This document shows, piece by piece, positions 1,433 through 4,622 of a stretch of 64,000 bases of DNA. The translations under genes were made by a program, and so were the position numbers. The DNA is taken from the NCBI RefSeq assembly GCF_014131695.1, contig NZ_CP036346.1:2480001-2544000 (forward strand), given 5' to 3'. Each line of letters begins with the position of its first letter. Position 1 is the first letter of the stretch. Source of the DNA: Thomasclavelia ramosa DSM 1402 (GTDB lineage: Bacteria; Bacillota_I; Bacilli_A; Erysipelotrichales; Coprobacillaceae). The notes beneath the pieces were generated by a model. It was not told the origin of the DNA. It worked only from the letters and a program-made list of their open reading frames with translations, and made no database searches.

Positions 1433-2635
1433 CTAAATAATTTGAAAAATATAAAATTTTAAATATGACGTTTCTTCCATTGTCCATAAAATTGGATGGT
1501 CTGGGTTTTGTTGAGTAACTGATACTTGTTTAAGGGTTACTCCAGCCTCATGCGCTGATTCACGAAGCATCTTTTCAAAATTATCAGTCTCCATAAAACG
1601 TGAACAACTACATGTAATTAAGTATCCACCTCTGCCTAATAATTTCATTGCTTTCATATTGATTTTCTTATAACCATTATAAGCATGATCTACCGTTCTT
1701 CTCGATTTCGTAAAAGCAGGTGGATCTAAAACAATAATATCAAACTGTCCCTTTTTACATTTATCTAGATAGTCAAAAACATCATCTTTTACAAAAGAAA
1801 TACATCCTTGTAAATTATTTAGTTTAGCATTAGCATATCCCTGATCAAGAGCAGTTTGTGATACATCTACTGCAACCACTTCTTTAGCTTTACCATAAGC
1901 CGCATTTAATGCAAAGCCCCCAGTATGACTAAAGCAATCCAAAACTTTTTTTCCATACGCTATATTTCTAAGTAAAACACGATTTGCTTTTTGATCTAAA
2001 AAGTAACCTGTTTTTTGACCATTTTCAACATCAACACTTAAATTGATTCCATTTTCATTAATAATCGTCGTTGTCGGTAAATTAATATTTCTCCAATATC
2101 CTTTTTCTAAAGGCAGTCCTTCTTTTGCTCTAACCTTAATATCATTTCTTTCATAGATACCTTTAACATCTTGCCCATCTTCTGTTAAAACCTCTAGTAA
2201 TATTTCATAGATCATATCTTTGATTTTATCTAATCCGTATGAACTAATTTGGCAAACTAAAATATCATTATAGCGATCAACTGTTAATCCCGGCAGTTCA
2301 TCTGCTTCTCCAAAAACCAAACGACAATTAGTTAAATTTTCTTTTTCTACTGTCTTGCGAAAGTCATAAGCAAATTGTATTCTTCGCTTAAAAAAGTTTC
2401 GATCAAATATTTCATTTATATCTTTAGATAAAATTCTTACCGTAATGTGACTATTTTTAGAAATAAAACCTGTTCCAAGGTAACGGCCAGTAGTAGTAAT
2501 GATATCTACCAACGCTCCATTTTCAATTGTTTCATCAATATTAACAGCATTATTTCTATACATCCACATCTGACCTTTATCAAGCCATTTTTCTCCTTCT
2601 TCAGATATAATGACCTTAGGATATTTTCTTTTCAT
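1433..2635 (-). CDS. rlmI: 23S rRNA (cytosine-C5) methyltransferase, RlmI family
   Basis: This is a class I SAM-dependent rRNA methyltransferase of 400 aa, the usual length for RlmI/YwbD proteins, which methylate a cytosine in 23S rRNA. An N-terminal PUA domain (about residues 3-80) contains the typical GALVDIITTTGRYLGTGFIS. The Rossmann methyltransferase domain follows: SAM-binding motif I is VLDCFSHTGGFALNAA, the acidic ribose-binding strand is EVVAVDVS, the active-site strand is FDIIVLDPPAF, and a Cys-rich motif YLITCSCSRFM carries the candidate nucleophile. It has its own promoter just upstream and is not in an operon. The choice of RlmI over other members of this family is by overall layout. 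Confidence 0.9.
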   Translation of the reverse strand: MKRKYPKVIISEEGEKWLDKGQMWMYRNNAVNIDETIENGALVDIITTTGRYLGTGFISKNSHITVRILSKDINEIFDRNFFKRRIQFAYDFRKTVEKENLTNCRLVFGEADELPGLTVDRYNDILVCQISSYGLDKIKDMIYEILLEVLTEDGQDVKGIYERNDIKVRAKEGLPLEKGYWRNINLPTTTIINENGINLSVDVENGQKTGYFLDQKANRVLLRNIAYGKKVLDCFSHTGGFALNAAYGKAKEVVAVDVSQTALDQGYANAKLNNLQGCISFVKDDVFDYLDKCKKGQFDIIVLDPPAFTKSRRTVDHAYNGYKKINMKAMKLLGRGGYLITCSCSRFMETDNFEKMLRESAHEAGVTLKQVSVTQQNPDHPILWTMEETSYLKFYIFQII

Positions 2636-2700: not shown

Positions 2701-2841
2701 ATATATTTCTTATTTATCAATAGATTCTTCGATATTAATCACTAAATATCCAATACTTAATGATTTTCATTATTAATTCAGTGTTTTTATAATTTAGATA
2801 TGATAGAATTAATAAAATAATAATATTTTAGGGAGGTGGTC

Positions 2842-2913
2842 ATGATGATTCTAGGTTATGTTTGCCGTAGAGTCGAAGGCACTGTGCTTCGTACAGAGTC
2901 TGTTAATCAATAG
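2842..2913 (+). CDS. 23-codon leader peptide of the ABC-F gene
   Basis: A short reading frame preceded by a very strong ribosome binding site (GGGAGGTGG, 2831-2839) starts at tandem ATGs (2842 and 2845) and ends with TAG at 2913. The peptide begins MMILGYVCRR and ends RTESVNQ. Its last seven codons overlap the left arm of the terminator-like stem at 2893-2994. This is the standard layout of a ribosome-sensing leader: a stalled ribosome would mask that arm. I do not recognise the peptide as a known leader. The two adjacent Arg codons (CGT AGA) after VC are a possible arrest site, but that is inference. Confidence 0.75.
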   Translation: MMILGYVCRRVEGTVLRTESVNQ

Positions 2914-3001
2914 GCTAGGCGATCAGAGTATAATGCTCTAGCTGTGCGAAGCGATTAGAAACAATCGCCTGATCCTATTAATCTTAGGCTCTGTTTATTT
3001 T
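2893..3001 (+). promoter_or_regulatory. Transcription attenuator controlling the ABC-F gene
   Basis: ACAGAGTCT (2893-2901) can pair along its full length, with one G-T pair, with AGGCTCTGT (2986-2994). The next segment AATAGG (2909-2914) pairs with CCTATT (2974-2979). Inside, AGGCGAT (2917-2923) pairs with ATCGCCT (2964-2970). The big stem ends directly in TTTATTTT, as an intrinsic terminator does. Competing structures exist: GCGATT (2951-2956) with AATCGC (2963-2968), and AGAG/CTCT around 2925-2939. A ribosome held on the leader ORF would cover 2893-2913 and block the terminator. The pairing is seen in the sequence; the drug-induced mechanism is inferred from other antibiotic-resistance ABC-F leaders. 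Confidence 0.7.
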
Positions 3002-3035
3002 AAATAAATTTATAAAATAAAGGAGCAAATATACA

Positions 3036-4622
3036 ATGATTGAAATAGGAATGCATAAAATTTATAAAAATTTTGGTTATAAACAAGTATTAAAAGATAT
3101 TAATTTTGAGATTTTAACTGGTGATCGTGTGGGAATTGTAGGCAAAAATGGTAGTGGCAAATCTACAGTGTTTAAAATGATCATGAAAAAAGAATTCCCT
3201 GATACAGGAAATATTACTATTCGCAAACAAGCTACTATTGGCTATTTAGAACAAATTCCAACAATCAGTGATAATGATATAACAGTAAAAGATATGCTGA
3301 TGTCATCTTTTTTCGAAATTCATGCTATTGAACAACGAATGCGAGCACTTGAACAAGATATGATGCATAATAATGTCGATGAAGCGATATTAAACAAATA
3401 TGCTAAAATACAAGATCAATACATAGCCCTGGGCGGCTATGAAGTTGAAGAAAAACTAAACAAAGTCATTACCGGCTTTAAATTGCATAGTATTTTAGAT
3501 AAGCCGTTTGCTATCTTGAGCGGTGGTCAAAAAACAATTATTAATTTAGCCCAATTAATTTTAACTGAACCTGATATCTTATTATTAGATGAACCAACTA
3601 ATCATTTAGATATTACAATGTTAGAATGGCTAGAAAATTATTTAAATAAGTATCGTGGGACTATTGTGATTATTTCACATGATCGCTATTTTTTGGATCG
3701 AGTAACTAATAAAACTATTCTTTTAGATAACAGTGAAAATCGTTTATTCCACGGTAATTACTCATACACCTTAAAAGAACAAGAAAGATTATTATTACAA
3801 GAATTTGAACAATACAAAACTCAACAGAAGAAAATCGAAGCAATAAAAGCTTCTATCAAGCGTTATCGAGATTGGGGTAATCAAGGTGATAATGAAAAAT
3901 TCTTTAAAAAAGCCAAAGAATTAGAAAAACGTTTAGAAAAGATGGAAATCCTCGATAAACCACAATTAGAAAAAAAGAAACTGCCACTTAACTTTTTGGG
4001 TGAACGCAGTAGCAAAGAAGTGCTTAAAGTCATTGATTTTGGAATATCTTTTAATAATCTATCTTTATTTTCAAAAGTGAATTTTACACTTTATTATCAG
4101 GAAAAAACAGTCCTACTAGGAAATAATGGTTCAGGTAAAACATCATTTATTAAAGCTCTTCTTGGAAACCTTAATAATTATCAAGGTGAGTTAAAAATGG
4201 CGGAAACAGTCTTAATTGGATATATACCTCAAGAAATAAATTTTATCAATAACAATGATTCAATTCTTCAAACATTTTGTCATGAATATCCTTGTTTGGA
4301 AGGTGAGGCTAGAGGGATTCTAGCTAAATATTCTTTTTATCAAGATCAGGTTTTCAAACGAGTAGGAAACTTATCTGGTGGTGAAAAAGTATTATTAAAA
4401 ATGGCTATTTTAATGCAACATAAAGTCAACTTATTAATTTTAGATGAACCAACTAATCATATTGATATTGAAACTCGTGAAATTTTAGAAGATGCACTTT
4501 CAAATTATTCAGGAACATTATTATTTGTATCACACGATCGTTATTTCATCGACAAACTAGCTCAACGTAAATTAGTTATCGAAAATAATACAATCAACAG
4601 TGTTTATTGTGACTACAAATAA
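3036..4622 (+). CDS. ABC-F family ATPase, probable ribosomal protection protein
   Basis: A 528-aa soluble twin-ATPase without membrane segments. The first nucleotide-binding domain has Walker A GKNGSGKS and signature LSGGQK with LLLDEPTNHLD. The second has GNNGSGKT, LSGGEK and LILDEPTNHID. Between them (about residues 245-320) is a Lys/Arg-rich linker (RYRDWGNQGDNEKFFKKAKE) that in this family reaches into the ribosomal P-site and peptidyl-transferase centre. Antibiotic-resistance ABC-F proteins (Vga, Lsa, Msr, CplR types) displace ribosome-bound drugs; the upstream leader and attenuator support that role over a housekeeping one. Ribosome binding site AAGGAG, terminator after the stop. The drug class cannot be read from the sequence; lincosamide/pleuromutilin/streptogramin A type is the best guess. 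Confidence 0.88.
   Translation: MIEIGMHKIYKNFGYKQVLKDINFEILTGDRVGIVGKNGSGKSTVFKMIMKKEFPDTGNITIRKQATIGYLEQIPTISDNDITVKDMLMSSFFEIHAIEQRMRALEQDMMHNNVDEAILNKYAKIQDQYIALGGYEVEEKLNKVITGFKLHSILDKPFAILSGGQKTIINLAQLILTEPDILLLDEPTNHLDITMLEWLENYLNKYRGTIVIISHDRYFLDRVTNKTILLDNSENRLFHGNYSYTLKEQERLLLQEFEQYKTQQKKIEAIKASIKRYRDWGNQGDNEKFFKKAKELEKRLEKMEILDKPQLEKKKLPLNFLGERSSKEVLKVIDFGISFNNLSLFSKVNFTLYYQEKTVLLGNNGSGKTSFIKALLGNLNNYQGELKMAETVLIGYIPQEINFINNNDSILQTFCHEYPCLEGEARGILAKYSFYQDQVFKRVGNLSGGEKVLLKMAILMQHKVNLLILDEPTNHIDIETREILEDALSNYSGTLLFVSHDRYFIDKLAQRKLVIENNTINSVYCDYK

Follow-up and report, generated by a model that had tools for sequence, protein, structure and literature searches.

A conserved leader upstream of an ABC-F gene in Thomasclavelia ramosa: a candidate ribosome-mediated attenuator with alternative RNA helices

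The ABC-F gene and its genomic context

The window analysed here is the whole 64,000-nucleotide stretch of contig NZ_CP036346.1 from Thomasclavelia ramosa DSM 1402 (positions 2,480,001 to 2,544,000, forward strand), and all coordinates are counted from its first letter unless stated otherwise. The gene at 3036–4622 was identified as an ABC-F ATPase by its match to NCBIfam NF000355 (416 bits against a cut-off of 380). The protein falls far below every NCBIfam cut-off for the named resistance ABC-F families (Vga, Lsa, Msr, Sal, OptrA, and CplR), scoring 262 against a cut-off of 780 for the CplR model NF043038. A leader open reading frame (ORF), Shine-Dalgarno (SD) sequences, and three RNA helices, designated A, T, and S, lie upstream of or next to this gene, as follows.

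2831–2839, + strand: SD of the leader ORF, GGGAGGTGG (from the sequence; homologous leaders have GGAGGTGG 8 nt before the start)
2842–2913, + strand: leader ORF MMILGYVCRRVEGTVLRTESVNQ; probable start at the second ATG, 2845 (from homologous leaders)
2863–2883, + strand: conserved peptide core C-R-R-V-E-G-T (codon alignment, spacing, and ribosome-position scans)
2885–2896, + strand: 5' arm of helix A (A5), within the leader codons (folding and covariation)
2893–2914, + strand: 5' arm of helix T (T5), overlapping A5 by ACAG and containing the leader stop (folding and covariation)
2942–2953, + strand: 3' arm of helix A (A3) (folding and covariation)
2974–2994, + strand: 3' arm of helix T (T3), which also pairs with the ABC-F SD in helix S (folding and covariation)
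2988–3002, + strand: 5' arm of helix S, formed by the end of T3 and the U-rich tract 2995–3001 (folding)
3013–3026, + strand: 3' arm of helix S, holding the ABC-F SD AAGGAG, 3020–3025 (sequence and folding)
3036–4622, + strand: regulated gene, ABC-F ATPase, 528 aa (NCBIfam NF000355 score and trees)

Among the 43 genomes of the family that were covered, a close copy of the ABC-F gene (77% identical) was found only in the window's genome and in Beduini massiliensis, and the remaining genomes carry just more distant ABC-F genes with at most about 40% identity. The plasmid collection contained no close ABC-F (best match about 41%), and no relative was found in the viral contigs. The length of the linker gap was considered as a pointer to drug class and set aside as uninformative, with 143 in the window protein, 139 in the YfmR/Uup-like ABC-F of the same genome, and 170 in MsrA.

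An RlmI-like 23S rRNA cytosine methyltransferase gene (1433–2635, minus strand) lies upstream and is divergent from the putative attenuator. This methyltransferase is missing from the 8 congeners searched (E 1e-60), and the whole stretch with the RlmI-like gene and the attenuator may have been acquired. The promoter scan showed no enrichment over shuffles, and the sole promoter-like signal was a weak -10-like TATGAT upstream in the window, at 2799–2804. The same genome encodes a second, Lsa-like ABC-F (L099; G000:C1:2412210-2413664, minus strand) with a leader of the short type, consisting of a 6-codon upstream ORF (uORF; MYKFSC) with a strong SD, a terminator-like stem, and a T run; the window leader, in contrast, is of the long type.

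The leader ORF and its relatives

The preliminary description of this locus reported a 23-codon ORF with a strong SD. Both elements are present at 2842–2913 and 2831–2839, but the homologous leaders of Beduini and Neglectibacter start 8 nt past the GGAGG, at the position of the window's second ATG (2845), and a leader of 22 codons is therefore more likely. The homologues of this ORF comprise L016, L017/L096, L097, L098, and those of a second clade (11 distinct leaders). These 15 further leaders, located upstream of related ABC-F genes in Beduini, Neglectibacter, and at least two groups of Clostridia, share the architecture and carry compensatory changes in both stems, A and T.

The Beduini leader has 81% nucleotide identity to the window and encodes the peptide MILRLFCRRIAGTQLRTESVK, while the leaders of Neglectibacter timonensis, G880, and G682 encode MVLMKNDRFCFRIGSDVLHTSPMNAD, MIRINYRAFCFRITGDVLRAGSMDRD, and MVLYYKIRAGVIALRTRSVR, respectively. 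The ABC-F proteins of these four and of the window form one clade with full support. The second set of leaders occurs in small clostridial genomes (11 distinct leaders analysed, for example MDNKQILNSRLKIRAYGCKTIATR), and its ABC-F proteins group, again with full support, in a clade of their own that adjoins the first, with only moderate support for the join (83/53). Four related ABC-F genes placed between the two clades (L018, L084, L144, and L145) are without such a leader, and for three of them (L018, L144, and L145) the preceding reading frame seems to reach as far as the gene itself. The leader may have had one origin followed by loss, or two origins. Within the order, a DNA-pattern search for leader homologs returned only the window's own genome and Beduini.

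Codon alignment revealed an Arg codon (2869–2871 in the window) that is invariant in 16 of 16 leaders and is the sole Arg position constant in all of them. Relative to this Arg, Gly is often found at +3 and C/T/D usually at +4, and the place of the Cys differs between the clades (-2 in one, +4 in the other). All 11 leaders of the second clade keep K(-2), R(0), and C(+4) despite synonymous codon changes (AAA/AAG, AGA/AGG, and TGT/TGC); the residue at +2 is constant in kind (Y/F), and the position after the Cys varies freely (K, E, H, Q, A, or L). Past C(+4), the RNA helix is conserved but the peptide is not, as in the frames KTITTR and KLLQAR. The SD and the codon-level conservation with synonymous changes point to translation of the uORF.

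The preliminary description did not recognise the peptide, and we likewise found no resemblance to arrest peptides in the open-licence literature, to which the search was confined; a subscription journal may hold an earlier account. Window-type leaders have 20–30 codons with the conserved core at codons 6–19, far longer than the ABC-F uORFs named in the literature (MIN, MR[I/M], MK[L/Q], MAGN, and MYLIFM), none of which resembles the window peptide (PMC10201436, PMC9226507, PMC10314930, PMC6851288). No Rfam family scored above its gathering threshold for the leader; a match to mir-7386, on the other strand and below gathering, was discarded as chance. An origin of the peptide as a transposon or recombinase scar, an idea taken from its N-terminus, was also rejected, as the homologous leaders found all lie upstream of ABC-F genes.

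Alternative RNA helices

The RNA folding check suggested in the preliminary description gave a leader fold more stable than its dinucleotide shuffles (z = -3.7, with 0 of 200 equally stable), and all 16 leaders fold below their own shuffles (z from -2.4 to -6.1). The long stem noted at that stage corresponds to helix T (2893–2914 with 2974–2994); it is present with the leader stop codon (2911–2913) inside its left arm, and the T-rich tract behind it reads TTATTTT (2995–3001). The alternative stems mentioned there also exist, the main one being helix A, with 12 bp between 2885–2896 and 2942–2953. A and T overlap the uORF, share ACAG (2893–2896), and are mutually exclusive. A further alternative, absent from the preliminary description, is helix S (2988–3002 with 3013–3026), which covers the ABC-F SD (3020–3025). 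T3 and the TTTATTTT behind it thus also pair with the SD region, the U-rich tract pairing with the A-rich stretch ahead of the SD. All three helices were found in every leader (16/16).

Covariation was observed in both mutually exclusive helices. Across five leaders, standard pairing is kept at 54 of 55 pair positions in A and at 46 of 50 in T, and changes on both sides affect 3 pairs in A and 5 in T; slid controls dropped to 11–58% pairing. The S hairpin was more stable than 193–200 of 200 shuffles in 15 of the 16 leaders, and the letters flanking helix S differ from lineage to lineage. Behind T, the U tract has 6 T in 8 letters in the window, Beduini, and L097 (where it reads TTTTTTGA), compared with 2–5 T in 8 in the second clade. 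T was not detected by the terminator scan because its loop is long. A5 starts 16–18 nt past the invariant Arg codon; the helix search gave this spacing directly for 11 leaders (within 15–18 nt), the L118 fold agrees, and for the other leaders, in which the search picked T, A5 was read by eye. In Neglectibacter (L017/L096), an extra hairpin GCGATTTTCGGATCGC lies directly past A3 and is followed by CTTTTTTG, about 100 nt upstream of the ABC-F start; this terminator-like element was not seen in the other leaders.

Default fold and ribosome-position scans

Folding was treated as equilibrium thermodynamics throughout. The full leader free of ribosomes was predicted to adopt the A and S helices in all 16 cases (A 0.76–0.98; pairing of T3 with the SD region 0.28–0.94), with the ABC-F SD paired in each default fold. 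In this state the SD was largely hidden in most leaders (exposure 0.04–0.31 in 13 of the 16), with values of 0.42–0.53 in L096, L097, and L098. When the growing window leader was folded, A formed before T3 was made, and a nascent transcript ending with the U tract preferred T (0.91).

A 30-nt ribosome was then moved along each leader, and SD exposure was computed at each position. Placing Arg+3 in the P site gave 0.00 for A and 0.75–0.97 for T in the nascent forms of all 16 leaders. In the window, T reached 0.89 with Gly13 in the P site and 0.10 with Thr14, where the leading edge at about 2896 covers ACAG, the T pairs next to the U tract. In 15 of the 16 leaders, the computed SD exposure was maximal between Arg+2 and +4, a peak that follows in part from geometry. 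The rise was small in several leaders, among them Beduini (from 0.04 to 0.06) and the window (from 0.04 to 0.33). In several leaders, S remained more stable than T with the ribosome in place, so a model in which T releases the SD requires T to assemble ahead of S while the RNA is being transcribed.

The ermC leader, with its known stall codon I9, served as a control. The same kind of scan on the intact ermC leader raised the exposure of the ribosome binding site (RBS) at V8–S10, bracketing I9, and this rise was absent in a deletion allele. A scan of the SD only was poorly informative on ermC, and the 16 leaders showed little change when the wider RBS measure was applied. Plasmid ermC leaders (L152 and L153) vary, with one S. 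epidermidis record lacking part of the attenuator (the deletion allele) and one S. aureus record carrying a duplicated segment.

Proposed mechanism and alternative readings

The conserved architecture, the covariation, and the codon-level conservation of the peptide support well the view that the leader and the ABC-F gene constitute a conserved ribosome-mediated attenuator. The core of the preliminary description, a leader-peptide attenuator before an ABC-F gene, is borne out by these features, whereas the OFF-terminator role given to the long stem and the choice of lincosamides and pleuromutilins are weak points. We favour, at a probability of roughly 0.55, an attenuator locked at the SD in the manner of ermC, with a wiring of its own, and relieved by a stall in the leader; a terminator could possibly act as a second lock, in the manner of cplR. 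From the computed parts, conservation, covariation, alternative folds, and codon-level conservation with its end point, we infer a stall at one spot, a drug as its cause, SD release as the output, and ribosome protection by the ABC-F protein. If no ribosome stalled, the finished leader would adopt A and S, and the ABC-F SD would be hidden; for the window's clade, termination of the growing transcript at the full T stem might add a further lock. A drug-bound ribosome would stall with approximately Gly13/Thr14 (2878–2883) in the P site, covering A5 and leaving most of T5 free. The free T5 would capture T3, S would be blocked, the SD would be exposed, and the ABC-F protein would be made and would then protect the ribosome. 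T, which competes with S for T3, would in this way be the SD-releasing state.

The stall is predicted with Gly (2878–2880) or Thr (2881–2883) in the P site. Judging from the conserved peptide motif and from its spacing, the arrest would come about 12–18 codons in, and peptide conservation ends at about +3/+4, where a ribosome would mask A5 yet spare most of T5. Among the drugs that the preliminary description named for testing, lincosamides and pleuromutilins seem doubtful as inducers, since a ribosome stalled at the start codon would mask neither arm, and the motif and spacing point to a later arrest. With A5 left uncovered, the initiation-stage drugs (lincosamides, pleuromutilins, and streptogramin A) should not induce under the SD-lock model, and tunnel-binding drugs or an in-chain arrest would fit better.

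The U-rich tract behind T in the window, Beduini, and L097 looks like that of a terminator and counts against the SD-lock model, which would fail if T terminated efficiently in the induced state. The same tract underlies a reading as a transcription attenuator, in which T would be the intrinsic OFF terminator and a stall upstream of A5, for instance with the Arg codon 2869–2871 in the A site, would allow A to form as an antiterminator and the ABC-F gene to be read through. This reading is in line with the TTATTTT and TTTTTTGA tracts, with the preference of the nascent window leader for T, with the formation of A ahead of T3 synthesis, with an invariant Arg placed so that a stall there spares A5, and with the terminators used by the ABC-F leaders vmlR, msrD, and cplR. 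We nevertheless regard it as unlikely, because in all 16 leaders the A state leaves T3 free to pair with the SD region, so that the induced mRNA would be poorly translated; a pure terminator/antiterminator scheme leaves the SD hidden when induced. Moreover, the second-clade peptide is conserved four codons beyond the Arg, the U tract of that clade is weak, and the tract is otherwise explained by pairing in S. T may still terminate unstalled transcripts in the window's clade.

A dual attenuator as in cplR would combine termination at T with sequestration of the SD by S at similar weight, and a stalled ribosome covering the base of T would relieve both locks. Such an arrangement accommodates the U tract and S alike, has cplR as a precedent, and agrees with a leading edge at about 2896 when Thr14 is in the P site. 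The drop of T from 0.89 at Gly13 to 0.10 at Thr14 implies, however, that the geometry must be exact, and the second clade is without a good U tract; an equal partnership of the two locks is accordingly quite improbable. A leader that senses a non-antibiotic signal, such as arginine or cysteine supply or a general slow-down of translation, would be consistent with the Cys and Arg codons in the core. We judge it highly improbable, considering that only one Arg position is constant overall, that the Cys moves from -2 in one clade to +4 in the other, and that the regulated gene encodes an ABC-F ribosome factor rather than a biosynthetic enzyme.

Within the favoured SD-lock model, we tentatively raise the possibility of a new class of drug-dependent arrest peptides with the core [C/K]-x-R-x-x-[G]-[C/T/D], found before ABC-F genes of gut Erysipelotrichia-type and clostridial bacteria. 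Such peptides might stall ribosomes 12–18 codons in, in response to a ribosome inhibitor not yet recognised, and might act through a non-ermC switch in which one overlapping strand is split into a covered and a free part.

Comparison with known leaders

ErmCL-ermC resembles the window in its leader peptide, in the hidden SD of the resistance gene, and in an alternative helix that frees this SD upon a stall in the leader. In the window, however, the switching strand, which overlaps A5, sits within the leader ORF, and it has its OFF partner (A3) on the downstream rather than the upstream side; the ermC wiring (1:2 and 3:4 against 2:3) was accordingly not found there. The ErmCL peptide MGIFSIFVISTVHYQPNKK is also unrelated, the target in the window is an ABC-F instead of a methyltransferase, and the window possibly adds a terminator.

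The cplR leader of Clostridioides difficile shares with the window an ABC-F gene, a uORF, and an SD hidden by default, and it joins the transcriptional and translational locks that may act together in the window, but its uORF, MR[I/M], has 3 codons and mediates drug arrest at initiation (PMC10201436). In Bacillus subtilis, vmlR likewise has a uORF upstream of an ABC-F, alternative structures, and an SD-sequestering hairpin past a terminator-like stem; it differs in its uORF (MIN), in its lincomycin-type induction at initiation, and in both structures and peptide (PMC9226507). MsrDL, MefAL, and TlrB undergo context-specific macrolide arrest in elongation or termination (PMC10314930, PMC6851288). 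Their macrolide motif, R/K-X-R/K, is matched by the K-x-R of L098 and the second clade, at a spacing that leaves A5 uncovered; a ribosome stopped exactly at the Arg would let A form and keep the SD hidden under the SD-lock model. The motif is absent from the putative arrest site of the window, which reads C-R-R.

For the most part, the ABC-F leaders named in the literature respond to initiation-stage drugs, and all are very short (PMC10201436, PMC9226507, PMC10314930, PMC6851288). The length of the window leader and its conserved putative arrest core, before an unassigned ABC-F clade, suggest a different inducer, and whatever stalls the peptide would offer a direct route to the substrate of this ABC-F. 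Comparison with the 15 relatives suggests that the gene is unlocked by a ribosome that stalls at a fixed spot in the peptide, much as in known antibiotic-sensing leaders, though with a peptide and wiring not on record. The analysis also corrects a natural misreading, as a U-rich tract behind a stem can belong to an SD lock instead of a terminator.

Other ABC-F clades carry uORFs of 35–45 codons (L023, L033, L047, L049, L090, L091, L019, L042, L112, and L114), in Enterococcus, Tetragenococcus, Dielma, Bacillus timonensis, Paenibacillus, Listeria, and a Staphylococcus plasmid. These show a recurring motif (for example AFCRTITFT, AFCHVIISNF, YVCKAIFHD, and YIVRAIFSG), many being followed by a GGGACAAGTGTGTCC-like hairpin, and those tested gave no Rfam match. 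Finally, in a plasmid optrA record (L111), a 14-codon uORF, MKSTTKVTFKELHV, with a strong SD was observed shortly upstream of optrA.
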